A DNA stretch of 64,000 nucleotides. Origin: Takashimella koratensis. Its lineage: Eukaryota > Basidiomycota > Tremellomycetes > Trichosporonales > Tetragoniomycetaceae. The translations under genes were made by a program, and so were the position numbers. Every line of letters begins with the position of its first letter. The first letter of the stretch is position 1. Below are positions 2,423 through 42,420 of the stretch, one piece after another. The stretch covers positions 127,143 through 191,142 of the forward strand of contig BCKT01000003.1 in assembly GCA_003116875.1 (NCBI GenBank), read 5' to 3'. The notes beneath the pieces are model-generated. The model saw only the letters and a program-made list of their open reading frames with translations. It ran no database searches and was not told where the DNA came from.

Positions 2423-4740
2423 CTATATCCTTCCTCCCTGCTGTCTACTCCTCGATGCCGTGCTCGCCTCGCTAGGCCTCCTCTCCCCTTCTCTCCCACT
2501 CGACGCGGTACTCGCACTTCCATTCCTCCCCCTCTCCGCCGTCCTCGAGACGCTCGCCTTGTCCGTAGCCCCGGTTGGGAGCTCAGGCGGGTCAGAAAAA
2601 TACGTTGAATTGAGACCGTAGTAACTTTGTGTCCCGTCGATAGGTATCGACGACTTCCTGATCGTCAACGGTCTGGTAGAGCCGGTTCCTAAAGAGTCGT
2701 GTGATTCGCGAGACGCCGCGCGGGAAGGTCGACGAGGAGGTGAATCGGTATTTGATGGGTTAGCCTTTTGAACGGATTTGGGAGTGGTCTTTGACGAGGG
2801 AATGGCGGCTGGTTTGGGTTTCGGAAGCACGCTAACAGGAGGAAACGCGTCCGGGTCGTCCGAATCTGCAGCTTCGTCAGAATCATCGGTCTCGTCGCTG
2901 TCCGAGTCGTCGTCGCTGGTAGTATCCACGCGAGCGGCGAGCTTGGGCGTTGGGGGACGTTTAGCCTCGACGCGTTTGGGAGCGGGCGTCGCTGGCGTCG
3001 TCTTGGCAGGAGTCGACGGGGGTTTCGTTACTTTCGGCGGCTGGGACGCAGTGGCAGAGGGAACTTGTTTCGGTGCTTCCTTGGACTTGGGGCTCGGTGT
3101 GTCTTTGAGCTTGGAAGTTTGTGCATTTTTGGGCTTAGGGCTCGGCGTCTCCTTAGGCTTGGAGCTCGGTAACTCTTTGGGTTTCTGTGTAGGTGTGGCG
3201 GTGGTCGATTCGGGTTTGGGCGAGGCGGTCGGCGTTGCCTTCGGACTTGGTTTCAATTTCGGTGGCGAAGATGATGGCTGGCTAGCTGCTTGTCTGCCGG
3301 CCGGCTCTTGTGAAGCAGTTTCAGCGGGGACGGTGCCGACCTGTGTTGGTGGTTTGGGCTGTTGCGCCTGAGTCGGAGCCTTCTTCACTTCCTTATCAGT
3401 CGAACCTGCCCTTGTCGTGCGTTTGGGACCTTGAGCCTCAACCTTGGGCACGCTCTGCACGTTCGGCACGTTTGGCACAGCCGGCACACTCGGAACGGGG
3501 GGGAGCTGTTTCTCACCCCCAGAAACCTCAGGGAACACTCTACTCTCCACCCTTCTCGACCCCGGTGGTTGGCGGACAGAGGCCATGGAGAGCCTGTGTT
3601 GTAGGTGACGAGGGTCCGGACTGGGGTTGGATGGGTACAGGTCTCGAGGAGGTTCGAGGTCGGTTGGTGTGCCAAGAGAAGACTGGGAGGGGACGTGAGT
3701 TGAGATTCGAGGGTGAAGGGAGCGCGTTTGGGGGTGATTGGACTGGGGAACGTGGCCGTGTGAGTGTGGGTGTCCGTGAGAGCCTTGCGAGGTGTGAGCG
3801 CCGTGAGCACCGTGAGCGCCGTGAGCACCGTGAGTACCGTGAGTACCGTGAGTACCGTGAGTACCGTTAGTACCGTGAGTACCGTGAGCGCCATGGGAGC
3901 CATGAGGCGGGTGGGCGTAGGAAGCATTTGGATTAGAGTGACCACCATGGGTGTTATCGCCATGAGCAGGATATCCACCATGACCTTCATGTCCCCCTTG
4001 TCCACCGTGACCGCCGTGTCTGCCGTGTCCGTTCTGCCCGCCATGAGACCCGTGCCCGTGCGGCTCTTTCGTATCTCCCACTGGCTGCCCATGCATCGTC
4101 GGCGGTCTGGACGGATCGCTGTCATAGTCTGGAGGAGGGGGTCTCGGTCGTCTCCCTCCTGTAATACTTGGTGCATACGACGCTCTGTTTACTCCCGTTT
4201 GAGGTCTTCCTTGTCCCGATGGCGAACCGGTCTGTTTGTCCCTGTGTTGAGCCTGGGCCTGGTCGGGTTTAGGCCTCGGGTTGTTTCCCAGTTCCGCCCA
4301 GTCTTTCTTAGTTGGAATCGAGTCGGCGCGGTCGGTACGTCCGGCATTGGGTTGGGAGGTGGACGAACCAGGCTCGTCCCCTGGCGTAGCAGCTTTTCGA
4401 CGACGAGCACGTTGAATAGTGAAAAGAATGAGGAAAGCGACACCAAAGATGCCGGCAGTGACGCTGATGCCGGCAATGATGAGGGTGCTGGTTGAGACCG
4501 AATTTTTCTCGCACTCGAGGTATTGGCTAAGAAGGAGTCAGGTCGCTTTAGCCGCGAGGTGGAATGAAGAAGAGGGTGAGTGGGTGGCTGGAGAACGTAC
4601 GTGACTGAGCCGTCGTAAGAACATGTGGTGTTGGAAGAGCCGCTGGCAGATAACGTTGCTGAAGAAGTGCCCGAGCCGGAAACGGTCTGAGCCATGACAG
4701 TCCCGCCGAATGCCACCAGGGCCAGAGCGACAGCCAACAT
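2423..4740 (-). CDS. Single-pass membrane protein with His/Gly repeat tail
   Basis: Secreted-then-anchored protein of unknown role. From the ATG at 4740 a signal peptide (MLAVALALVAFGGTVMAQ) leads into a short Ser/Thr-rich outer region. An intron (4527-4600, donor GTACGT) joins to TQYLECEKNSVST. One membrane segment follows (LIIAGISVTAGIFGVAFLIL), then a basic stop-transfer QRARRRK. The cytoplasmic tail has a Pro-rich stretch, a long His-Gly region with HGT/HGA triplets, a Pro/Lys/Ser/Thr region with repeated 'PSPKPK'-like units, an Asp/Ser acidic block and a Ser/Arg-rich end. This layout resembles fungal cell-wall sensors of the Mid2/Wsc type, but no Cys-rich WSC domain is visible. The frame extends upstream to 4944 with an earlier ATG at 4890; I chose 4740 because it starts a clean signal peptide. 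Confidence 0.65.
3780..3900 (-). repeat. In-frame triplet-codon repeat coding His-Gly-Thr/Ala
   Basis: A 9-nt unit (plus strand GTACCGTGA or GCACCGTGA) is repeated about ten times with one interruption (GTACCGTTA). On the minus strand it codes HGT then HGA units inside the cytoplasmic tail of the membrane protein. Near-identical adjacent units suggest recent expansion and probable length variation between strains. Confidence 0.85.
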
Positions 4741-8995: not shown

Positions 8996-10616
8996 TCACG
9001 CAAGCTGCCACCCCTCCTGCTGCTCCGCGTCCGTGGCGGCATTGTCGATGACCTTTGGCATGTTGACGACAATACGTCGAACTTTGCCCTCTTTCTCAAG
9101 TTTGACAAGGTGTGCAAGCGTCCCCTTGCCCGCAGCCGCAATGATCCCCTCCTTGTCGGTCTTGTAGATGAGCCGGCAAAGAAGCGGGACGGTAATTGCA
9201 TTCGCAGCGGTGGACGACTCCGTCGGGAAGACTGTCGGGTCGAGGGGGATGTGCTTGGGCGCTTCGGTGTACTCGGGTCCCATTCGTTCCTTGGTCTTGT
9301 CAGACCACTGGTAAAAGCCGTCGTTGCGTTGAGCTTCTGCTGCGCGCTTGCCAGCGGTCAGCGCATCGACTTCGGCGAGGCGGGAACCGAGTGAGCCAGG
9401 GTTGGCAGAGAGATCAGAGAGGATTGTGACGATCTGGTCTTCGCGCTCTTGGCGGTGCGTGATGTAGTTGTTGATGTGCTCGCGGCACGCGTCGGGGGTG
9501 GTGATGTGTGGTCCATGAGCAGGGTAGAGGACACTGGGCTTGAGAGCGAGGAGGGTCTTGAGTGAGATCAGGTCTGGGTATGTCAGCGAAGTAAACACGC
9601 AAAGCAGAATCGACCTACAAGCGGCGAGGTCGGTAAAGACCGTGGTGCCCTGGCCCAGTACGGTGTCGCCGGTGAAGATACCCCTCTCTCCTTCCAGCAT
9701 GACGAGCGAGACCGAGTCGGCGGTGTGTCCGGGGGTGCGCAGACACCTGAGACTGACGCGTGCCACCTCGGGGACATCGGCCCACTTGGGCTTCCCTTCC
9801 TTGTCGTGCTTCAGCAGGTGGCGGTAATTGGGGTCGATGATGGAGATCATGAGACCGGGCATGATCGGGTGAAACGGTTGGAGAGGGGAGAACGATGTGT
9901 ACGTCCCCGGGGGGAGGGTACCCCAGAGAGCGGCGTCGGTGGTCTCTCTGTCTCGTTCATTGAGAGCGAGTTCGGCCTCGTCCGGGGAAGGGTACTTCCA
10001 CAGCTTTGGAGGGGGGAGTCCGTTCTCCTTGAGCGTGGTGAGCAAGAGCGGCAACGCACCGACGTGGTCGAGATGACGATGAGTGAGGATGATGTGCTCG
10101 ATCGCTGGGAGTCGCCTTTCTTTGGTCGAGTTGGGCGCCCACTGCGCGCCAGGACCGTACTCAACCAACTCAACGGGGTTGATCTTCGGGTCGTCTTTCC
10201 TCTCCGCGATGATCTGGGCCTTGACTTCTTCGTGTCTCTCCGGATCAATGTTCTTCAATTTGGACTGGGCGGCAGCAGACTCGAAGTGTGTCTCGCGCAC
10301 CCCAGATTCGAGACCCAGGTGGTGCAGGTGGACGAGGAAGAGGTCGACGTATTGTTTGGCAGTGTGAGGGGAGCTCGTGTCGATGAGGATGAGAGGAGCA
10401 AGAGGGTTGGAAGGCGGTTGGAGGAGGTAAGAGTTGGTCCCCTGCAGAGTCATGAGTCCGGGGTTCTGCCCGAGGACGCGGGTGACATGCGCCGAGAGCT
10501 GCAGGATAGGTCATATGTTAGTTAGGACTGATTGGAAGCTGTTCAAAATCGGCCGGGGAGCAGCTATTCACCTTGAGCACATCGCTCAAGCGCTCGAGGT
10601 CGGTGTTCATCGCCAT
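8996..10616 (-). CDS. Metallo-beta-lactamase-fold hydrolase, LACTB2-like
   Basis: Zinc-dependent hydrolase of the LACTB2/PksA-TE group; members act as endoribonucleases or thioesterases. Three exons: 10616-10572 (MAMNTDLERLSDVLK), 10498-9619 and 9573-8996. The second exon opens with LSAHVTRVLGQNPG and MTLQGTNSYLL, the family's N-terminal signature. Metal-binding motifs are visible: THRHLDH, RTPGHTADS, FTGDTVLGQGT and YPAHGP. The helical C-terminal part matches the winged-helix tail of LACTB2. Intron 2 is only 45 nt and keeps the frame open, so it is easy to mistake for coding sequence; splicing turns DLAAC... into DLAAYLISLKTLLALKP. The gene is divergent from the MCT-like transporter. Substrate cannot be told from sequence. 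Confidence 0.85.
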
Positions 10617-28356: not shown

Positions 28357-29830
28357 TTACACTTTCTCGACAGCGTCACTGGCACCGGCCCAACGCCGGA
28401 CTGGAGTGAACCCGTCGAGCTCGGGCGCGGCAAACCAAGTGCCTTGCCAGCACTTCCACAGCGTCATCGTGGACACGTAGAGCCAATGGAGGCAGACTTG
28501 GGCAGCGATGATGGCGCCAAACACACGGAAGGCGGGAGAGTCAATAGTATGTGCAAGGGCAATAGTTGCGGTTCCAAAGACACTGAAACAGGGCGGTCAG
28601 CTTCACGAACTCTCCACTTGGTTCCTTCCCATCATAGCTAAATCTGGCTGAAGACACTACTCACCCGATAGGAAAGGTGAGCGCCCAGAAGCTGACGGTA
28701 AAGCCGGTGGTGAAGATGGTCCAGTCCTTCCTTGCGGTGTCGAGCATCATCGCAAATGCGAGGATGTACCAGACGAGCCCCAATCCCCACAGCACCAGAC
28801 CAGCCACAAGACCTCCAGCATACACTGCGTCGGCGACGGCGCGGATCGACTCTGTCCCGAACCCGACGTCATAATCGTAGGCAAGAGTGCGAACGATGGT
28901 GCCGAGCGTAATGATGCCGTAGCTCCCTTGTCCACATGGTCCGAGAGGCAGGAACGCCGATGCGATCGCTGCGCCGAGCGGTGGACCGTGTAGCGCGAAT
29001 CGAAGCATTACTAGGGCAATGACGAGAAGGGCAGAAGGGACACCCGTACCCCATACGACATAGGCGGCGATGGCGGTGGAGCGGGCGAGAGCGGGGTCGA
29101 AGGGAGCCAGGGCCGTCGCGACGACCGCACCGGAAGCAGAAGCGACGACCGAGGTGACGATGGGGAGTAGCCAGTTGGGCGAGACGGATTGTAGGGTATG
29201 AGCGTGTCGAGTGAACCTGGGCGTCAGCTGATTTCCAACGAGAATACTTACAGGACGAAGACCATTCCGAGATTAATAACCATGCTCAACACGACGTTGA
29301 TCCACCATAAGCCAAGAGCCAGCCGAGCCCAGTGCAGACCCCACGCTGGAACACAAACAAACGCCACCATGTTCTGCAAAGGTCAAACAAAGAATCTGAC
29401 GGAATTCCCTCATGAGTGTACTCACGACGATAGTGGTCATTCCCATTGGAAGGCAGCCCCAGAATAAACCGGCCATGAAGTGATCCCTCACCGCCGAGAA
29501 AACCCCTCTCCATCGCACATAGCGGATCACCGTAGCCGCGAGCAACACCAGGAAGACGACCACGTTGAGGACGAAGACGATGATACCGAGGATCCGGAGC
29601 CAATGCGCCTGGTAAGGGTAGTTGTAAAGGAGGATTGAGACGACTCCGGTGCCCATGTTTATTGAGAAGAAGCTCGGTGGGAGATGGAGACAAGCTGTGT
29701 TAAGACGTTGTGCCAGGGTCCGATGGGGTTTGACGGCTGAGCAGTCATGCGAGGTAGTGTCGGATGGCTCTGGGGTTATCTCGTGCACGCCCATGGCGGT
29801 GAGCGTGCCGTCGACTTCGGCGGAGGCCAT
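28357..29830 (-). CDS. TDT-family transporter, Ssu1/Mae1-like
   Basis: Ten-helix tellurite-resistance/dicarboxylate transporter family protein; fungal members export sulfite (Ssu1) or take up malate (Mae1). A hydrophilic N-terminal tail leads to LPPSFFSINMGTGVVSILL, the conserved first-helix signature (P-x-x-x-F-x-x-x-M-G-T-G). WGCLPMGMTTIV, PNWLLPIVTSVVASASGAV, LPLGPCGQGSYGIITLG and the last exon TFPIG/VFGTATIALAHTI follow. GPCGQGSYG is close to the Ssu1 type. Introns near 29402-29425 and 28583-28664 join in frame. The C-terminus ends GASDAVEKV. I favour sulfite export over malate, at moderate certainty. Confidence 0.82.
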
Positions 29831-30482
29831 GGTGTGGACAAGGATTCAGCGCGATGGGAGGCTAAAGCTGGTGGGGGGTCCCATGCTACGATTAAATAGA
29901 AACGTGGGGCTCGAGGCTACGTTGCGAGGGGCAGCCGCTTCACCGAGTCGGCATTGGAGTGATAGGTTGGTACGAGAGTAGAGTGGTTCGTAAGTAAAGA
30001 TGTTCAGCTGACAGATTGCTGTGACTCGAGAGACTGACACCGAGGCCCGCTCCCTCTCGTTCCAGTGGCCAACACCAGACAAGCGATTCCAATGCAGAAA
30101 AATTCGTAAACAAGCTAGAAGAAGAAAGTTACGTAAAGCAGAGATCTGCTTGGGGACTGGGCAGCCGGAGCCGCGGGTGAGACGGCTCGGAGGTTGCGGT
30201 CCAGCTAGGCAGCAGTGGCAGGAAGGAAAGTACAGCACAGGAATGTCACGGGAGATGGAGCTATGCAAAGTATGGGGGGGAAATATACATGAAGGACGAA
30301 ACGAAGTAAAGCGGTATAGGTGTACGCCGCTGAACACGAGAAAGTCAGAAGTGTTGTCGTTCGTGTGAACATCGTTACGGTCGTTATCAGTCCAGCAATC
30401 CATCCTGTCGTCCCTCGTCCTCGTCGTTCATTCGTGATAATCGAACCATCGTAATCATCGTCGTTTGTACTCGACCACCGAC
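29831..30482. other. Intergenic region
   Basis: 652 nt upstream of the TDT-type gene and downstream of CHAT1. I see no gene or repeat. Confidence 0.5.
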
Positions 30483-31797
30483 CTACGCACCCACACATGT
30501 CCAACACGACCAAAATACAGGATCCTCGAAAGGGAACGAACCGTCGCAGAAGGGGAAATTCTCCTTGACGAGCTGGCGAACCAGTTCCTTCACTCGAAGT
30601 CGCTCTTTGCAATAGTGGTCCCGCTCAAAGAATGCGTCGCTGTTTTCGATGTCCCTTAGCCACAGCTGGGCCTTCTGCGAAGCCAGAGGAGGCGCCATCC
30701 CCTGAATCATTGAAACTCGAAGAAGCGTTGAGTGAATAGGCACGCGACGATGTCGAATACCGGCCACAGCGCTGTCACAACGCTGGCGGCACCCGCCTGG
30801 ATGAACGCGGTCTGAACGGTTAAAGGTTCGTCGGGGTGGAAAAGGTTCGCGGCGCCCACGCTGCACGCACTCAGAACGACACATCGTACTAGTCGAGTTT
30901 AGCGATATCTCGAGCTCCAAGCTGTCCGTCCATAAGGAGAAGGTAACTTCCTCCCCGCGACAAAACATCGCTCTTACCATGAGCCGCGATGAGGACATGG
31001 GTCGTTCCAAGGGGTAGATCGCGCAAATGTAGCGAGACTGCTTGCTTGGCGAGATGGATTCTGTGATCACGGAATCCGATGGAGGCCGCAATGAGGCACT
31101 CTTCTTTGGCAAATGGGAGGTGTGAAACGCCAATGGCAAGGAGCTTGTGTCCTTGTGCGACGCCGCTGTCATCTGCAGCTGCCGCCGCAGCTCGACAACC
31201 GGCATCAACAAGTCCGCTCGGGCTTTCGGTGACCTCGAATGAATTCAGCAGCCCTTTTGCGTCCCCTTCTTCATTCCATCTTGCCAAGGAAATGGGTATG
31301 CCTCGGAGCCGCCCGTGAAGGACAAGCGTGATCCCCTCGATTTGCACATGTTTTGCCGTTTTTAGCTCAACAAGAAAGTCGTTGAGAGGTTGCGAGACGT
31401 TCCTTCCAATCGACGACATCATGGCCGCAACGTCATGGCAAAACCGTCGATAATTGTCGTTTCCCCCCATTCGTTGAGATCGAAAAGACGCAATGTCTGA
31501 AAAAGCAGCGCCATCGGTGTGGGGTAGGTGTAGGGCAAAACTTCGGAAAAGACTTTTTTGACCGCCCCGAACGCATATGTCGATTGCTGGTGCATTCGCG
31601 ACAATTGCGTACGTCCCAGTTACGGTACTCATCAGAGAGACCGTCGGCCAACCCGAATCGAGCTGGAGCAACGCCTTGTCGAAGAGGTCGAAAAGCCGCT
31701 CGAAATGATTGTTGCTCGTGCTGCTGGACATGAAGGGTGGGAGTAAGGGTGAGTGTTGACTTGCCTGTCTGCAATGGACCACGATAGTGTACACCAT
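30483..31797 (-). pseudogene. CHAT1: truncated, frameshifted CHAT-domain gene
   Basis: Third copy of the locus's CHAT (caspase-like, HetF-associated with TPRs) protease domain. It corresponds only to the second exon of CHAT2 and CHAT3; the TPR exon is absent. The frame is open from 31797 through the His region (GTTHVLIAAHGKSDVLSRG) to a TAG at 30889-30891 just after ARDIAKLD. Comparison with CHAT2 (AREIVKFNYAGVRCVVLSACHVG) shows 7 nt missing there; the Cys region (VRCVVLSACSVGAANLFHPDEP) is intact but in another frame. One more base is missing near 30709, after FEF, before MIQGMAPPLASQKAQ. The conserved end (DGSFPFEDPVFWSCWTCVGA) remains. With the 7+1 nt counted, 1315 nt becomes a multiple of three. 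It is a relic, or makes only an N-terminal fragment. Confidence 0.85.
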
Positions 31798-32442
31798 TTA
31801 GCGTACAGCCCCCATGAGAGGAGAAAAACCCAAGACGTACAGGAAAGGAGGGAGAGAAGGATGACCGAAGATATGGCGAGAGCTGTTGCTAGAGACAGAG
31901 TAACAGCGTCGAGGATGGCAACATGCGATCCGAGGAGTCGGATTGGACTCGGTTCCACAAGGCCGTGTGCTTCAAGTGAGGCTGATTAGGCGCCTTTCCT
32001 ACGATGTCATGGAAATGGCCAGCCCGATGTAGTTATATGAGCTGGCGGATTCGTAAACGTGTATAGGGAAACTGTGGGCGGAAGTTGCCTGTCCTTGGAG
32101 CTGCCCGGATCGAGGAATTAGTTGACGATTGATTCTGATCCTTGGGACTGGCCGGGATGTCGGGGAGTGACTGCGCTTCTCCTATGTTGCTTTGCCGGTG
32201 GAAAGGATGGATGCGGACCAGCGGTTGGAAGAGGATGGGGAGTGGGGGATGGGATGAAGTGGAAGTATGATGAGAAACGAGATGAAACGATTCAAGACAA
32301 TGTCGTTCTTCACCTCTCACGTGTCTCTGGATCCAGGTTGCTTTGAGCTTTGACTCGCTCGCACCGCATCACCGTTGACAACGTCCTCATCTCGAGGTCT
32401 ATTCCATCATACTGTCTCGTCACTGTTCAAGCAGTCGCAACG
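31798..32442. other. Divergent intergenic region CHAT1/companion A
   Basis: 645 nt head-to-head spacer. No remnant of a TPR exon is recognisable on the minus strand; a hydrophobic minus frame at about 31958-31800 looks like chance. Confidence 0.5.
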
Positions 32443-33509
32443 ATGGTCTACGCCAACCACCAGGCCGAGCATAGAGCTACATTGCACTCTATTTCCGTTG
32501 AGGAGGCTGCGGAAATCGAGGCAGGGCGGGCTCGTCCCCAAACACGACTCGAAGATGTCCACGACAGCGCACAGCCCATTTTGGAGTCTCCTACCGAGGA
32601 CGCCATACCGTCTCATACAATGGAAGCCAAGAAGCTGAAGCAACTTGTTACGAGGGTATGTCTGCTATCTTGAGCCACATCTCCAGCTACACTGACCAAC
32701 TACTAAGCTCTGCAAAATACAGTTCCCGGACACAGCTTCACCGTCCGTCCTGGTCGACTTCATCAACTCCCGACTCCGTGCGATAATCCGCTTTGATGTG
32801 GACCGTCAACGCTGCGAAGACACGTGGTTATGGGCGGGAACAGACAAAGCATCGCTTGAACAGTTTAACAACTGCTACTTCAGCTTGATGGAAGACTGGT
32901 GCAACCTGATCGGTGGGGTCGATGATGCCATCCAGCCGGACGAGTCGAACGCGCCCGTTGACAACCCCGAGCTCACCTTCTTCGGGAAAGGAGTCACCGC
33001 ATTTGTTCGAAATCAAGTGCAAGCTTTCACAGTTCTTCGACAAGGGGACGCGCCGAGTCTTCGGCAGTGGTTCAAGAACTTTGCACATGTCGTCTCGCTT
33101 CCTTGGCGCCTGGGGTCAAGGGAGGAGATAAGGGATGAGGTCTGGATGCCGCTGGCTTGGGTCGTTCTTGCGTTCTACGATTTGGGGACGGAGAAAGAGC
33201 TGGGTGGTATTGCTGGTGAGTCCTCTGGCTGAGCTCTGATATCCTAGCTGGTGTCTGACCGAGAGGGTAGTCATCCGGAACGGGCTCTATGTCGTTCGGC
33301 ATCTCGTCATCATCGGCGCATTCAACGACGCCACGTGGAACGAGCTGAAGGCCACGCTAAAGTCGATCGACATGAACGACGAAATTAGCAGGATCAAAGC
33401 GGCAATGCTGGAGTGTCGCGCTCCCAAGAACACAGGCGGGGATGCCAGAGCCAAAGACTTTGACAGCAAGTTCCAGAAAGCCGAAACTTCCTCAATCTTC
33501 CGGATGTAG
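32443..33509 (+). CDS. Companion A: unrecognised protein paired with CHAT genes
   Basis: Not a family I recognise; 314 residues. Exons are 32443-32655, 32723-33215 and 33271-33509, with introns in phase 0 and phase 1. An acidic, Ser/Thr-containing N-terminal segment of about 65 residues (SISVEEAAEIEAG ... KLKQLVTR) is probably disordered. A largely helical body follows with FPDTASPSVLVDFINSR, SLMEDWCNLIGG, FGKGVTAFVRNQVQAF, LRQWFKNFAHVVSLPWRLG, WVVLAFYDLGTEKELGG and VIRNGLYVVRHLVIIGAFND. It ends FQKAETSSIFRM. It aligns end to end with companion B at 37676-38783, including intron phases. No signal peptide, membrane helix or catalytic motif is visible. Position between two CHAT genes suggests a substrate, inhibitor or regulator of the CHAT protease; that is inference. 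Confidence 0.75.
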
Positions 33510-34061
33510 GCGGTCGCACTTCGATTGATGGGATCAAGACAGGGGCTAGGCTGGCCAAATCGCTGGGCGTGTCCGATACCATTGGGTTTCTTCTAGGTGA
33601 CTGCTGTTGGTATTCTCTCTCGGCTCACAGGTATGGCGTTGTACATGCACATGGATATAGTCAAGGCACTCGTTGTACTTGTATATATGCACTTCCCTAT
33701 GATTGCGCCCTGTTCACGATCTCTTCCACCTGTCACAGCCTGTCTCGACCCTCGAGCCTCCCCAACCCTCATTGTCATTAACACCGTCGATGTCCCCACT
33801 GTTACCGCTGTTCCCGTCATCGTGTTCCGTAGTATCAATCATCCAATGGTATTCCTACGTCTTACTTGGACGCGGGTGTATGTCGATGTATATGAAGCTG
33901 CTGTTTCCGTCTCCAACGTCGGCTATAACCTCCTCCTCGTGTGCGTTCGCCAATGCATGCTTGTCCGATCCCCTTGGTCTCCTCCGGTATCCTCCGTATC
34001 TCCTGTCGTTCGTGTGACTCCCTCTCGTTCATCCAACCGCATGTACTCGCTCGCTTAGTCC
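33510..34061. other. Tail-to-tail spacer companion A/CHAT2
   Basis: 552 nt between convergent 3' ends. No gene recognised. Confidence 0.5.
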
Positions 34062-37000
34062 TTACGCGCCCAAACACGTCCAACAAGCCCAGAAGAACGG
34101 GTGCTCAAAAGGGAACGATCCATCGCAAAACGGTGACATCTGTTCCACTTGCTCCTCCACCAACTCCTGCACTCGAGGTCGGGCCTTGCAATACTCGTCG
34201 TGGTCGAAGTACTCGTCGTCGTTCTCGATATCCCGAAGCCAGAGTTGAGCTCTCTGAGTTGCGAGGGGGGGTGGAAGACCTTGAACCATATGAAATTCAA
34301 AAAAGCGTTGCGTGAACAAACAAGCGGCAATGTCCATGACGGGCCAAAGACTGGCAACAACGCTGGCAGCACCAGCGCCGAGGAAAGCTGTTTGAGCGCT
34401 CAACGGCTCGTCTGGGTGAATGAGATGAGCGGCACCGACGTGACACGCACTGAGTACCACGCAGCGTACTCCAGCGTAATTGAATTTGACAATCTCTCGA
34501 GCGCCCAGCCGGCAATCAGAAAGACGAAGCCCGCTAGCCCCTCGAGAAAGCACGTTCGTGTAACCGTGGACCGCCGCCATGACATGAGTCGTCCCAGTTG
34601 GTAGGTATCGCAAACGAGATGACTCGGCGGATTTGCCGAAGAACAATGTTGCGTCTTTGAACCCCATCGGAAGTATAGTCTTACACTCCTCTGCCGCCAT
34701 GGGCAACTCCTTTGTATCACCCACTGCAAGAAGTTTGAAACCATTCACCTTGCCCATGTCGTCCGCTCGGTCGGCACAGATAGCACACCCCGCAGCGATA
34801 ACACAGCTGGGACTCATGTTGATGCGGAAAACGTCGAGCAATGTATGACCTGCTCCGTTTTCTCTCCAGGGCGAGGCGGAGAGAGGGAGACCTCGAAGTT
34901 AGCCACGCAGGACTAGTACTAGCCCCTCCACTGGTACATCTTTGTTGGTTTTCAGAAAGGTTAGAAAGTCTTTCAACGACTTGGCGACGTTTTCGCCCAC
35001 TGAAGCTGTCATCGTCTGCACAGCTCGGAGGAACAGTCGACACTGCCTTCCAGTTCTTCCTACTCGAGTCGACGGAACGGACACAATGTCTTCCTGCGCT
35101 TCTTCGGAGGTATACGACGGGAGGTGTAGAGCGAAAATTTGATAATGGCAGGTGTAAGAAAGCTGTGGAGGTGTCGAGTCATCACCATGCAGTGCTGCGT
35201 ATACAGTGATATTCGTGCCTGTCTCCGTACCGATTAGGGAGACAAGTGGCCAACCAGGTCGAATAGCTTGCTGAACAATGCCGATATTGGCAGACAAAGT
35301 TCGCGTCCCAACTGCAAGGGTCCCACGGTATGCGATCGTTTTGGGATCGACTCGAGCAGGAGGCCATAACGAGGGCTGTATGTGTCAGTCTCCAGTGCAG
35401 TGCCGATGTGGGGTGATAACATGGCGAAAGCACTCACGTGTGGAATGCGTAGACGTTGTGCCCTTCGCAGGTCTCTGGTCTCGTTCTTCTCTACTAGAGA
35501 CAAGGCATCTTCATGTCGCCCTACTTCTCCCAATGCTGTTCCTCCTTGATTCCAGTCCGTCCAAGCGCAGAGTGAATGGATGTACTCTTGAACCCATGGG
35601 TCGGGCTCTTCGTCAAACAGTCGGTTGACAGCCTTGTCGACAACATCACAATATCCTGCCGCTGTCTTGTGATCTTGTCTCGAGTAATGGTGAAACGCGA
35701 TCAAACTCCCGAGGAAAGCCTGCGCACGCGGGGATGACCAAATCGACCGGTGAGACAGACGACGGACTCGTTGCGCAAAATCTTCGTCGCTGGCAATAGA
35801 CGGAATGGCCCGAAGCAGTGTCAATATGAAATGCTCACAAGAAAGGGCGAGCATATTGTCATTGTCATCATCCATGAGAGATTCTGCCTCCTTCAACATG
35901 GCAAAAGAGTCGACAGCTCGTTGAAGCCATGCCCGGGATGTTATCGGTGACGCGCTGCTGTGCTTAAGGACTACCAGCTGTACCAAAGCCCAAGCTCGAT
36001 GCTCCGCTTGAGTTTCCGAGAATTTGAGAATCTCTTCGAGTACCGTCTGCGCTCGGTTTGATATTGCATGTTGAGAATTTGTCCCCAACGCCGCATGATA
36101 GCGTCGAATCCACTGCGCAACTTCAACCGCTCTTAACTGGACGGGCGAGCGCATGAGCGGCTCGGCGACTTTGAAAGACGTATAAGGGCGCAGAATGTCG
36201 CACATCGCCAATACAAGGTTTTGAGTCGACGACAATGGTGCTAGCCTGATTTCAAGAATTGGCGCCAAAGCCTCAACGAGCTCGAATCCTGCCGAATCGA
36301 GAAGGTCTGAATGAAATCTCACATCCTTTGCGAGGAGCCTATAAGCATGGATAAGGTGAAGCGAGGCAGTAATCAGAACCGTACCCGTACCCTCATCGTT
36401 CTGAGAATATTGAAACTTCTTTCGGCCCAGGTCGTGATAGAGTCGAGGACCGTGCCACATGTCGTCGATGCAATCACAGTTCTGGAAGAAGGTGACGAGG
36501 CGGGACGTTTCGAAGTGATGAACAGCGGCAATGTGAGTAGCTTTTCCCCCACGGGTGTTTTGAGATGCGGTGATGCTCGCGTTCAACATGTAGCTTGAGT
36601 AGAGTACGTTCGTCCATATCATTCCATCGCAGTCGATAACCCGGGAGGCGGATTTACGCAATGCCGTCGCTTTGATTCTGCTTGACGCTTGTATCCGATC
36701 ACGATCTTCGATACAATCGTAGAAATACTGTCTCAAAACGGGGAGAGCTTCCGAGCGTTGAAGTCGCATTTTCATGGTCAGATGCTAAGCCCGTCGTGTA
36801 TTTGCATTCTCAATGCACGCAAGAATACGTCGGTGTTCTCGGCAAGCGTAACGGCGAACGGGGGGAGCCGAGTTATTTGGGTAAAATAGTTGAATCATCT
36901 GATCAATTGTCTGAATGTGGTTGAACGATGTGCAGATATACTCGAACTGTTCGAAAGTTTCGGCCTCGTGAAGATGCTGCAACAAATGGTGGCAAAACAT

Positions 37001-37201
37001 GTGGTCCATTGCGCTTGGACTGGGTCGAATCGGGCATTCGACTGGCGTCAGCTCTTGTAGCTCGTCAAAGGCTTTGTCGAACAGATCGGAGAGCTCCAGG
37101 AGTTGATCACGAAGCGAAGGTTCTCGGAGTACCTCGAGAATGTCGCGAGCCTCTGAGTCCTGTTCGAGCCAAGCAGCCGGGATTGCGATCTCGGTATCCA
37201 T
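34062..37201 (-). pseudogene. CHAT2: TPR-CHAT gene with two in-frame stop codons
   Basis: Copy of the TPR-CHAT protease gene. Exon 1 runs 37201-35438 (588 codons, helical TPR-like region) and exon 2 35375-34062 (438 codons, CHAT domain); the intron has a GTGAGT donor and CATACAG acceptor, phase 0. The reading frame is continuous over 1025 residues except for TAG at 36785-36787 (codon 139) and TAA at 34899-34901 (codon 747). The TAA replaces the Pro of LVLRGPLRG seen in CHAT3. The presumed catalytic His (THVMAAVHGYTN, codon 858) and Cys (VVLSACHVG, codon 899) have the same numbers as in CHAT3. The C-terminus (FPFEHPFFWACWTCLGA) matches the usual CHAT end (HPxxWAxFxLxG). Length is fully kept, so decay is recent, or the stops are read through. 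Confidence 0.85.
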
Positions 37202-37675
37202 GTTGGCGAAGGAGAAATGGACTTCCTGTGACAAAATCAGGCATATGAAGGGATTGACGGAAAAGAAGAAGGGCTGGGGCCGTGTGCGGTTCACATCTAC
37301 CTACAATCAACTAAGGTCAAGAACGAAGCGAGGCGACGGCGCAGCCCGAGGGAAGAAGACGAGTCGAGAACACGCTATGTTGATGGCGTGAAGCTAGCCG
37401 TCAAGAGCAGTCAAACCAAAGAGTGAAAGGAGCGTTGAGAGCCGGTGAGCCAGAGAGCGAGCGGCGAGCAAGTGAATGGTGTCGAGTGCGATGTGTAGAG
37501 GGGTGGATGGAGAGGTAGGTAGCCTAATGAGGTGAGGAGCAAAGGCAAGGTTTTGAGATCGACAAGGCGGTTCTACCCGAAGCCAAGGGGCTAACCCTCC
37601 TTTGGTTAAGATCTCTCTCATTTTGCTATCATCCATCCTCCATCCTCAACCTCTTCATCCTCATTCACAAGCCCC
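37202..37675. other. Divergent intergenic region CHAT2/companion B
   Basis: 474 nt head-to-head spacer, presumably a shared promoter. CT-rich just before the companion start (about 37610-37665). No repeat shared with the CHAT1/companion A spacer was obvious. Confidence 0.5.
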
Positions 37676-38783
37676 ATGTCCTCTGCTGAACACTCTCCCC
37701 CGCTACACACGTCGCTACCACCACAAGGGGCCTCTCTCCAGTTCATCTCCGACGACGAAGCCATCGCCATCGAAACAGCCAAGCTTTCCCTCCAGCCAGA
37801 GGACCAAGAGGGTGTGAACAGCGCTGATGCTCAGTCTGCTTTGAGTACGGTCGACTCATCGTCGGAGCAAGAGCAATCCGAGAGACTTAGACAGCTCGTG
37901 TCATCCGTACGTCAGCACCGTGCTACCATCGTCTCTCTCTGAGCTGCGTGCTGACCAACGAGTCAGCTCTCCCACGCCATATTCGCCGACACTGCCGCCC
38001 CATCTGTTCTCATCAAAGTCGTCCAGAACCGATACGTGGTAACTATCCATTACAACATCGACAGCAAGCGTCCCTCCGAGACCTGGTCGTGGGCGAGAAC
38101 CAATACCGCTCCTCTCTCCGACTTCACAACATACTACCTGACACTGATCGAAGAGTGGATCAAGCTTCTTCGCCAGCTCCAGCTCCCCCATGACGCATCC
38201 CAAATCGACCCTTCTTCGCCTCACGACACCCACAACGAGTCCGAAGCGGTTTCCTCCCAAGGGAAGGTCACGGTGTTTCTGGAGAAGCAGGTGGCGGAGT
38301 TCAAGAAGTTACGACAGCGCGACGCATCGAGTCTCCGTGACTGGTTCAACAACTTTGCCCATATCGTTTCGCTCCCATACAGAGTCGGACTGGCGGAGAA
38401 AAGAATCGGGGAGGTAGCAAGCGCGCTGAAGTGGGTCGTGGTCGCCTTCTTCGAGCTGGGGTGTAAGAAGGGCAGTAGTGCCGCAGGTGAGTTGTTCTCT
38501 ATGCGGTTTGGAGTATCGGTATCCGCTCTAACAAGGTATAGTGACTCGAAACGGACTGGACGTCGTTCGGCACCTCGTTACCCTCAGCGCGTTCAATGAC
38601 CCGACCTGGGAACTACTCAGGAACACTCTCAAAGCGATCAAGATCAGCGACGACTCGATCATCCGCATCAGGACCGCGGTGTTGAGCACTCGGGCGTCGA
38701 ATGTCTCTGTTGGAGAAGAAGACGCCAATAATTTCCACTACAAGCTCAACGCAGCTGAAGCCTCGTCGATATATCACATGTAG
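37676..38783 (+). CDS. Companion B: paralog of companion A
   Basis: 330 residues in three exons (37676-37906, 37967-38486, 38542-38783), introns in phase 0 and phase 1 as in companion A. The N-terminal acidic tail has FISDDEAIAIETA (compare SISVEEAAEIEAG) and RLRQLVSS (compare KLKQLVTR). The body matches by segment: IFADTAAPSVLIKVVQNRY, TLIEEWIKLLRQ, VTVFLEKQVAEFKKLRQRDA, LRDWFNNFAHIVSLPYRVG, WVVVAFFELGCKKG and VTRNGLDVVRHLVTLSAFND. The C-terminus is HYKLNAAEASSIYHM, matching FQKAETSSIFRM. It is head-to-head with CHAT2 and tail-to-tail with CHAT3. Function unknown. The intact state of both companions beside broken CHAT genes suggests they are kept by selection. Confidence 0.75.
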
Positions 38784-39271
38784 GACGAGTCCGTGGGTTC
38801 ATGAGAAGTTCGTGATTGATGAGTGGGTGTGACGGCGTGGCTTTTGGGTTTTGTTTTGGGTTTGGGTTGCTCGTTTGACCCGCTAGTCACATTCATGAAA
38901 TGGTGCATGTACAAATGGTATGGGCTAGGTCCAAACTCAACAATCATGCGTGTCGACTCGCCGTTTTGTGCTTTCATCATGCACCTTCTCGAGTAATGGT
39001 CTAAGGTGATTGGCAACGATGACAAAGCGCGCTGTGGTCGCCGTCTTTGCCGTCGTCGCTGTGTTCATTGTACCGGTACTGGCTGCGATTGTGTCGTTCG
39101 TTGATGGTATTACCGTGTCTTTGTGATCATGCTGCCAACGCGTTTGTGGTGCGACGCCGCATCTTTCATCATAACTAACTGTCGTCGAAAGCCCGTCTTC
39201 GTATAAGTCCGTTGTTACCCCCCACCGCCACCTGGGCTCGTCGGCTCTCCCTGGCGACGGCCCTCGCCAAT
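38784..39271. other. Tail-to-tail spacer companion B/CHAT3
   Basis: 488 nt between convergent 3' ends; no gene recognised. Confidence 0.5.
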
Positions 39272-42200
39272 TCACGCGCCCGTGCATGTCCAACACGCCC
39301 AGAACAGAGGGTTTTCGAAAGGAAACGTACCACGACACCACGTTCTCGTCTCCGGCGCATTTGCAAAATCCTCGACGATGTCCTTGACGTCGGGATGCAT
39401 TTTGCAGAAGTCGTCGTTGTTGAAGTAGTCCTCGCTGTTCTCAATGTCACGAAGCCAGAGTTGGGAGCGTCGCAGAGCCTCGGGTGGCTCGAAGCTGCCC
39501 TTGACATGGTAATCCATGAAGCGCATACTGAAGACATACGCCACGAAATCGAAGACCCGCCAACAGGGACCTATAACGCAGGCTGCTCCCGCGATGAGGA
39601 AAGCCGCCTGGATGGTGAGCGGTTCGTCAGGGTGAACGAGGTGCGCCACACCAACATCGCACGCAGTGAGGAAAACGCAGCGAAGGTGTTTGTATCGACA
39701 CTTGGCGATCTCAGTGGCAGTGAATGTTTTATCAACCAGTTTGATCCCACTCGATCCTCGAATCGTGACTTTGGTCGTTCCGTGCATCGAGCAAAGAATG
39801 AAAGTTGTGTCTTCGGGTGGCGTCGACAAGAGCTGGGACCTCGCTTTGTGGTCGAAAGCCAGGGTGTTCCTGCCAGGGAACAAGCTTGCCGCGCTGATGC
39901 ATTCCTTCGCCGACATGTGGAGTCGCTTTCTGCGGTCGGGCCACTCGGCGGTCGGGTAGGCCAATGCCAACAAACTGCTTGCTTTTTTGCTGATGTAACC
40001 CTCCGCGTTCTGCACCCGATCGAAAACCCCGCCAGCGATGAAGGCACCCGGCATCTCGCGAACGGTGTAGAAGTCAAGCAGGCATCGTTTGACCCCGTTC
40101 TCATGCCACATCGCGGAGAGTAGAGGGGCACCACGAAGGGGTCCACGGAGAACGAGAGTGATGCCTTCGATTTGAAAGTGGTCCGGGAATTTGCAGTTTT
40201 CTTTCTCGAGAAAGTCTCGTAGCCGTTTAGCAAGGACTACGCCAATCATCGCGTCGAGGTTGGCGAAGGTTTCGTCCATCAAAGCAAACTCTTTCGATTC
40301 TCGACCCGCATGAAACCTGCTATTGACTGCTTTTACCGACGACAGATCAAATTCATGTATTCTCAGCTTGGTGGTGTGGTATTGTTCCATGTTTGACAAA
40401 GGCGAAGTCGTGTTTGTTGGCTTGGTCGCAAAAATGATGGTGATATCAGTACCCTTTGGGAAGACGTTGATGGACACGAGAGGCCAGCCCGGTCTGGCTG
40501 CTTGTTTGATCTTCGGGATCGTGACATCCACCGTGCCCATGACGTTGGCGAAAACGGAGGAGACGTATTGGACTTCGCCTGGTGCTGTTTGAACTTGTGG
40601 CTGAAGGTCCCAAGTCGCTTCAGCAAGAGCTGCGCTGCATATACAGAGACGATCGTCAAACTTACCTGTTTGAGCATCTTGGCAAAGTGGAGGCTCAGTA
40701 GCCTAGCCTGATTTGCTTCCAGATACAGCAATGAGTCGTCGAACTGGTCCAAATTGACATAGACGGCGCCGCACCACGCCCACTCTCGCAGAGTTCCGGC
40801 GTAGATCATACTAACCGCCCAGCCTAGAGTGTCGACGCGAAGAAGTTGCTCGAATTTCTCATGTAGCCGCTTGAATCGAGATGCGGCTAAATCCCAATCT
40901 TCCTCATGGACGCTTGTGCTTGCGAGCGCGAACAACTTTGTGCACTGATAGTCTAGCGGTCCTTGAAGTAGGTCGCTACCCGAGGCTTCTAATCCATCTG
41001 CCGTGGGATCAAGTCCGAGGAGACCGCGAGCGATCATCTCGAGTGGTTCGCACTGATACGAAAGACCGTATCTGTCCAAGTGTTGAGCCGCCCGGGCAAG
41101 CACCTCCATCGCTTCGTGGAGCTGCTGCACCTCACTATCCGACAGCTGTTTGATACCCTGAAGAGCTGAAGTCGCATTCAGATATGGAAGGACGAGTTCG
41201 AAGATCTTGGAAGAGGCGATATTCAGAAGGGCCATACCGAGACTCCTCGCGTCGATAAACTCGTTGGTTCGGCGTTCCATCTGCTGAGTTGTCAAGATTG
41301 CGTGTCTCAACAAGACCGATCTGGCTCGGGGTAGAAGCAAAGAGAAGTTGACAAGCATTTGAGAAGCGTTGACTTCGAACTGAGCGTCATACCCGCTCCA
41401 TCGACGAGCAAATCTGAGCAAAGCCAGTCCAAGTCGTACGACGATTTGGTCGACGTAAGGGAAAATCCCCGACTGGGTCAGGTCGCTGAACACCACGATA
41501 AATGACTTTGTACGCGTTGTAAGGCCATCAAGATCGAAGACCGAACCTTCACTCGCTTGAACTGTGATTGCTCGAAGCATCAAGCGAATACCTGCCGCAA
41601 TGTCCAACGGGGTTGTTTGATGATTGGAAGTTTTGACGAGACAACCGCCGAGATCGAACATGATGGCGACGTAACTATACAACTCGTCTTCTTGTTCCTT
41701 CGTAGAGAAAAGTAGCCTCCAGAATACTTCAGCGTGTTGTTGCGCGCGCGAGAAGCAAGTGACGAGATACGGATCTTTTGGAGCTTGGAGATCGCCGGCA
41801 TCTGCCATCACCTTCCCTTCCAACCAGAAAGGGAAGACAATGTTCTCGTATGTAGCTCCAAACCGAGACATCCGTTCACGCAACTCTGCGGCTTTCGCTT
41901 TGTCGCTCTCCATGTAGAATTCAGCGTTTAGAAGTCGGCTTTGTTCAGCGTTTACATCGTCAAGATCGCGCAAGTAGGCTAGTCGATCGGCCTGGCGGAG
42001 TCGATACAGCTCTTGCGCAAGCGAGGAACTTCTCGGCAAAGCGTCAAGGATGGCTTGGTCATCTGGGTGGCAATATCGTGTGATGGCTTCGTGGTCCTCT
42101 GGGTGTACCTTGGCGATCGCATCTTTCACGGCTTGCTGATAACCCGAAAGTTTTGAAACGCCCGAATCGTCGTGGGTTTCGTCCAATTCCACCAGCGTCC

Positions 42201-42420
42201 GTTGCGTGAGAACGAAATCGATCGCGCTGGGCGATGGACGTGTGTCGTACTCGGGGCCGAACTTTGAGAGAGACTCGTCGACCGCTTGAATCAAATCAAG
42301 AACATCGACAAACTCGGCCCTCATATCCTCGGCATTCCCGATCGTCAACGTGATATGCTCCTCATGTGTAGGAGCTAGGAAGTCCTCGATCCACCCAAAC
42401 TCGTTGTCGGCCGTCGACAT
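39272..42420 (-). CDS. CHAT3: intact TPR-CHAT caspase-like protein
   Basis: 1027 residues in two exons: 42420-40666 (585 codons) and 40600-39272 (443 codons with stop), joined KMLKQ/PQVQTAPG by a phase-0 intron. Exon 1 codes a long helical region of TPR type, with ETHD-rich N-terminus and repeated helix pairs. Exon 2 codes the CHAT domain, a cysteine-peptidase fold related to caspases and separase. The catalytic pair is visible: His858 in TTFILCSMHGTTKV and Cys899 in VFLTACDVGVAHLVHPDEP. The C-terminal FPFENPLFWACWTCTGA is the standard CHAT end. Known CHAT proteins process target proteins in bacterial defence and in fungal death-related systems. This is the only intact CHAT copy in the window, and the only one without a head-to-head companion. 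Target unknown. Confidence 0.88.

Follow-up and report, generated by a model that had tools for sequence, protein, structure and literature searches.

The window analyzed here is a stretch of 64,000 nucleotides of Takashimella koratensis DNA (contig C3, bases 127143-191142; the genome totals 25.1 Mb in 24 contigs). It holds a cluster in which genes for CHAT-domain proteases alternate with two genes of a second family, which we call the companions. From left to right the five loci are CHAT1 (minus strand), companion A (plus), CHAT2 (minus), companion B (plus) and CHAT3 (minus). Companion A is head-to-head with CHAT1 (645 bp gap) and tail-to-tail with CHAT2 (552 bp gap), while companion B is head-to-head with CHAT2 (474 bp gap) and tail-to-tail with CHAT3 (488 bp gap). 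The gaps on both sides of each companion fall within 474-645 bp, and no extra gene was modelled inside them. The six introns modelled at the locus are 52-65 bases long and all carry GTRNGT donors. The first-pass annotation of this DNA had proposed this order, these strands and these head-to-head and tail-to-tail neighbors, and our gene models and coordinates bore this layout out. A protease gene that adjoins a partner gene is a feature of the two-gene clusters of fungal gasdermins and proteases, and the same feature is found here.

One intact-looking and two damaged CHAT genes

CHAT3 (39272-42420, minus strand) is open throughout and encodes 1,028 aa, with one intron (40665-40601); its predicted dyad consists of His858 and Cys899, each within the motif expected for it. 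Against PF12770 (cut-off 24 bits), CHAT3 scored 74.7 bits (E 1.1e-20) and a fragment of CHAT2 scored 96.4 bits (E 2.7e-27). The columns of His858 and Cys899, which we take to be the catalytic pair of the CHAT protease, are invariant in a six-row alignment (H273 and C314 of the exon), and both residues are present in all ten rows of the alignment used for the tree described below. A plus-strand open frame of 314 codons (39179-40123) runs antisense to the catalytic exon of CHAT3 and is perhaps a by-product of composition.

The profile made from the six rows (CHAT3, the CHAT2 fragment and four database proteins) matched Craspase CHAT chains among PDB sequences, with a best E of 4.6e-10 over ~100 positions; a chain named Csx29 was matched at E 4.9e-4. 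A model of the CHAT exon of CHAT3 reached medium confidence (predicted local distance difference test, pLDDT, 56; predicted template modelling score, pTM, 0.54) and gave 16 matches to PDB structures at E <= 0.001, with low template modelling scores (TM-scores, 0.23-0.27 of the model). Fourteen of the 16 are titled Craspase, TPR-CHAT, Csx29 or caspase-regulator, and the other two, titled only 'bacterial protein complex', contain the same CHAT chain. No TPR model was found at E <= 0.1 in the N-terminal half of CHAT3 (585 aa) or in CHAT2 35237-36784, in a scan that divergent repeats can escape, that took in CHAT2 only past its residue 138 and that did not extend to the CHAT genes of a second array on contig C5. 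The Csx29-like arrangement, TPR N-terminal to CHAT, was not seen in the N-terminal parts scanned.

CHAT2 (34062-37201, minus strand) has a canonical intron (35437-35376), and its catalytic part (34062-34898) contains both the His and Cys motifs. The frame is open save for two in-frame stops, and the gene is broken by them. The first, a TAG (36785-36787, minus strand), lies in the N-terminal part; the fourth codon past it is ATG, so a later start of CHAT2 is possible. The second, a TAA (34899-34901, minus strand), lies in the CHAT region upstream of the catalytic His and Cys, so that both are present but follow a stop, and the residues flanking it match CHAT3 without a gap. We considered that the stops might be spliced out. 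A search for frame-keeping GT..AG candidates of 40-150 bases, within 160 bases either side of each stop, returned 10 and 7 segments over the two stops, none with a full GTRNGT donor, and this explanation was rejected. The stops may come from an assembly error.

CHAT1 (30483-31797, minus strand) lacks the N-terminal half, and its similarity to CHAT2 begins only at the CHAT part, in pieces that occupy three reading frames (31653-30892, 30889-30698 and 30710-30486). It contains a stop at 30889-30891, its catalytic His and Cys are in different frames, and its PF12770 match in the genome scan spans only model positions 190-247. To judge from these reading frames, CHAT1 is a decayed, non-working gene fragment. 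Where the remnant starts (31645-31767), it bears a weak and non-significant resemblance (34% over 41 aa, E 0.15) to the cap at the N-terminus of CHAT2, as though a deletion had removed the sensor half that once separated this cap from the protease. The claim that the locus holds three CHAT genes stood in part. All three exceed the curated PF12770 cut-off in the genome scan, but CHAT1 is dead and CHAT2 carries two stops, and CHAT3 is the only one of the three that looks intact.

The companion family and a probable duplication of the locus

Companion A (32443-33509, plus strand; exons 32443-32655, 32708-33215 and 33271-33509) encodes 319 aa, and companion B (37676-38783, plus strand; exons 37676-37906, 37967-38486 and 38542-38783) encodes 330 aa. 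Each has three exons, with both introns at matching positions and canonical splice sites. The two proteins are paralogous, with 132 identical residues in 315 aligned columns (42%), a BLASTP E of 4e-72 and a shuffle-test z of 90. Their peak 19-residue mean hydropathy is low (1.5 for A and 1.4 for B), and so no membrane span is expected; their net charges are -9 and -8. We also considered that a companion might be a copied piece of a CHAT N-terminus, and rejected this after eight comparisons showed no similarity (z -1.0 to 2.3).

Searching the 25.1 Mb genome with A and with B (E <= 10, only the best candidates being scored) returned five matches each, all of them exons of these two genes, and no third companion was found in the window at E <= 1. 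Pfam, NCBIfam and PADLOC held no family for the companions at E <= 1. Among PDB sequences at E <= 10, companion B gave one chance-level match (E 0.74), which was not a gasdermin, and a two-row A/B profile gave none. Pattern matches to the companion in viral contigs (45) and in contigs of prokaryote genomes (60) all went unconfirmed. A protein database of 5.8 billion entries, queried with B and with the A/B pair, yielded no relative, but close fungal relatives seem poorly represented there. This silence is weak evidence because CHAT3, used as a query in the same database, retrieved only four proteins at 25-27% identity (three from jgi, one from ena). The databases searched, among which there was no fungal genome collection, thus contain no companion relative outside this genome that we could find. 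The earlier proposal of a single family without a recognized match agrees with these results and with the 42% identity and common introns, and a known housekeeping family, a match to which the annotation had named as grounds for refuting its reading, did not turn up in the same databases.

The companions have diverged about as far as the protease part beside them. Identity is 43% between A and B (z 90) versus 44% between the catalytic parts of CHAT2 and CHAT3 (z 125). By the Nei-Gojobori method (NG86), the companions have a synonymous divergence (dS) of 2.38 and a nonsynonymous divergence (dN) of 0.52, and the catalytic parts a dS of 2.14 and a dN of 0.57; these values suggest that companions and catalytic parts are of like age, with replacement changes held well below silent ones, although the equal-age argument is coarse because dS is near saturation. 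The pace is very different elsewhere in the protease. Along CHAT2 and CHAT3, z is 6.6 over the first 140 residues and 0.2 (no similarity) over the next ~440, then rises to 24.6 in the stretch ahead of the TAA and to 125 in the catalytic part. That the two N-terminal halves share no similarity across their middle ~440 residues fits a diversifying sensor. That the companion tracks the catalytic part and not the variable part argues against the companion as a diversifying recognition element; it fits a sensor-protease with a client that has to preserve its contact with the protease, but it is no proof of such contact.

In a tree of the catalytic half (ten rows), CHAT2 and CHAT3 fall together with support 96/97, and four CHAT genes from a second array, on contig C5, form a separate group with support 91/90. 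Being broken, CHAT1 is not in the tree; at 48% across 140 aa it is closer to CHAT2 than to CHAT3 (33% across 188 aa). The simplest history we infer from these comparisons would be an ancient tandem duplication of one CHAT-companion unit. Tandem duplication of a two-gene unit accounts best for the alternation, which therefore counts as one linkage and not as several independent ones. The first-pass annotation had taken the duplicated pairing as a sign that the two products work together. The similar divergence agrees with it, but the pairs are not independent evidence: they most likely share one origin and two of the three proteases are broken, so the case for repeated functional pairing is weaker than it first appeared and comes down to a single pair that may work, accompanied by relics.

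The second array (C5:1400322-1412665; loci L009 and L010) consists of four tandem CHAT genes, C5a to C5d, all on the minus strand, with catalytic parts 38-57% identical. No companion was found at E <= 0.1 in the 30 kb fetched around it, and therefore CHAT genes in this genome multiply without a companion too. Divergence is much quicker in their N-terminal halves (z 93 for a/b, 40 for b/d and 1.3 for a/d) than in the protease part; C5c, which was outside that comparison, matches C5b (E 1.2e-24) and C5a (E 4.9e-12) by tblastn. The idea that N-terminal divergence is special to CHAT2 and CHAT3 was therefore rejected, since the genes on C5 also vary fast there, and because they do so without a companion, variability of this half characterizes these CHAT genes in general. 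A Zn2-Cys6 domain of fungal type lies ~6 kb from the array.

A candidate client of a CHAT protease

Several triggers of regulated cell death are known in fungi, CHAT proteases among them. In the available part of one review, ~80% of fungal gasdermin genes lie near protease genes, 63% S8 and 19% CHAT, the latter figure counting gasdermin genes within 10 kb of CHAT genes (PMC10197012). According to a second review, a TPR-bearing CHAT protease of Podospora anserina activates the gasdermin of its own two-gene cluster (PMC12881547). Gasdermin is the only fungal CHAT client named in the accessible portions of these sources and of a third (PMC10197012, PMC12881547, PMC11138114). The present locus resembles the gasdermin clusters with CHAT or S8 proteases in that a fungal genome carries a large protease gene, here CHAT, with a small partner gene beside it, but the companion has no gasdermin match by sequence. 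Craspase, as outlined in the material available on it, joins Csx29 (TPR-CHAT) with its substrate Csx30 in type III-E CRISPR. The catalytic part of CHAT3 matches Craspase CHAT chains by profile (~100 positions) and by model; unlike Csx29, its N-terminal half has no TPR model, and the companion matched no Csx30 chain among PDB sequences, where the presence of Csx30 was unchecked, although an entry with Csx30 in its title (8eey) is in the structure library. The papers listed by a limited literature search on CHAT in Tremellomycetes do not mention a CHAT domain, and we do not claim that none is in print that does.

We favor the reading, to which we give a probability of roughly 0.4, that a fungal CHAT protease has the companion as its linked client, probably an effector that it cleaves, a role that gasdermins fill elsewhere. 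Under this model, that unit members were duplicated together and act together, that the companion is cut and where, and that it is an effector in immunity are all inferred. The two-gene unit would be a fungal immune or self-recognition locus, in which a caspase-like CHAT protease would use its fast-changing N-terminal half as a sensor and the companion would be a small soluble partner and client. Once the sensor is triggered, cleavage of the companion by the protease would set free an active fragment; the likeliest sites for the cut are the N-terminal tail of the companion and its linker near residues 140-165, both poorly conserved. After a tandem duplication long ago, both companions would have survived while one protease died and the second was broken by stops, and CHAT3 with companion B would be the pair most likely still working.

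The proposal that companions work with CHAT proteins came through with mixed results. In its favor, both of the companion copies found lie between CHAT genes and none was found elsewhere in the 25.1 Mb among the best candidates scored; the companions also change at the pace of the catalytic part and match no known family. Several observations weigh against our favored reading. Of the seven CHAT places located in the genome, four (all in the array on C5) lack a companion within the 30 kb fetched around them, and fast N-terminal change is seen in those companion-free genes as well. Companion A is intact beside two broken CHAT genes; in the locus as a whole, damage has struck two of three CHAT genes and neither companion. 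Tandem duplication carries neighbors along regardless of function. By blastn there is no intergenic similarity, the only DNA similarity left in the locus being coding, and the boundary of the unit was not seen. Lastly, an AlphaFold2 model of exon 2 of companion B, aligned with A (two sequences), had a pLDDT of 43.4, too poor to judge the fold, and the lack of outside relatives and the near-saturated dS belong on the same side.

Many of these points can also be read as the mark of a passenger, that is, an unrelated lineage-specific gene that lay beside CHAT when the segment was duplicated and whose product does not interact with the protease. All local linkage is traceable to one duplicated unit whose surviving DNA similarity is only coding, the CHAT array on C5 lacks a companion, and companion A outlived the neighboring CHAT genes. 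A passenger would sit less easily with two companions that were both kept open through a dS above 2, with dN well below dS, and with the failure to find a companion copy away from CHAT genes. We regard this explanation as rather unlikely.

A companion that binds the protease as an inhibitor, chaperone or adaptor, instead of serving as its substrate, would likewise change at the pace of the catalytic part and not of the variable middle. The head-to-head layout would allow joint expression, with CHAT1/A and CHAT2/B as divergent neighbors across 645 and 474 bp, but blastn found no similarity between these two intergenic regions, in which shared promoter motifs were not searched for. An inhibitor would moreover be superfluous once its protease is broken, yet companion A is intact, and we consider a regulator of this kind quite unlikely.

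The damaged genes beside an intact copy also recall an incompatibility locus, in which CHAT and companion would be antagonists; the locus would be polymorphic, with the broken CHAT genes as its null alleles. The precedent is hetB of Aspergillus fumigatus, where, in the part of the report available, a CHAT protease (1,327 residues) and a 149-residue protein without a predicted domain are the opposing incompatibility forms (PMC11138114). Likened by description only, both cases involve a large CHAT protease and a small protein without predicted domains, the two being genetically opposed in hetB. However, the hetB forms are alternative alleles at one place, whereas here the companions (319-330 residues, against 149) coexist with CHAT side by side in a single genome, the only one analyzed. 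An incompatibility locus of this type seems highly unlikely to us.

To return to the client reading, gasdermins were considered as candidates for the companions. They received no support from Pfam (E <= 1), PDB sequences (E <= 10) or a genome scan with PF04598 (E <= 10), a scan whose power to detect fungal gasdermins was unchecked. The companion might still be a very divergent gasdermin. Because no gasdermin signature was found by sequence, the locus resembles the gasdermin-CHAT clusters in layout, while its membership among them is not established. That the companions form a new family of protease-activated fungal death or defense effectors, unrelated to gasdermins and under the control of a linked CHAT protease whose sensor half diversifies rapidly, is an unlikely extension of the client reading.

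Genomic setting and significance

To the left of the cluster are pieces of a SLAC1-type anion channel gene (28664-29845, PF03595), possibly a sulfite exporter, and to the right there is an MFS transporter gene near 45 kb. Farther out in the window, a frame of 704 aa (2426-4537) contains several tandem repeats and a collagen-like repeat signal under the cut-off, and 8999-10510 encodes a metallo-beta-lactamase superfamily protein with an associated winged-helix domain, perhaps a LACTB2-like hydrolase.

If the client reading is true, CHAT3 and companion B would provide a simple two-gene system for cleavage tests, and the known immune repertoire of fungi would gain a second family of CHAT clients. 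Should the link not hold, the locus would instead be an example of how tandem duplication can create a false signal of functional pairing.

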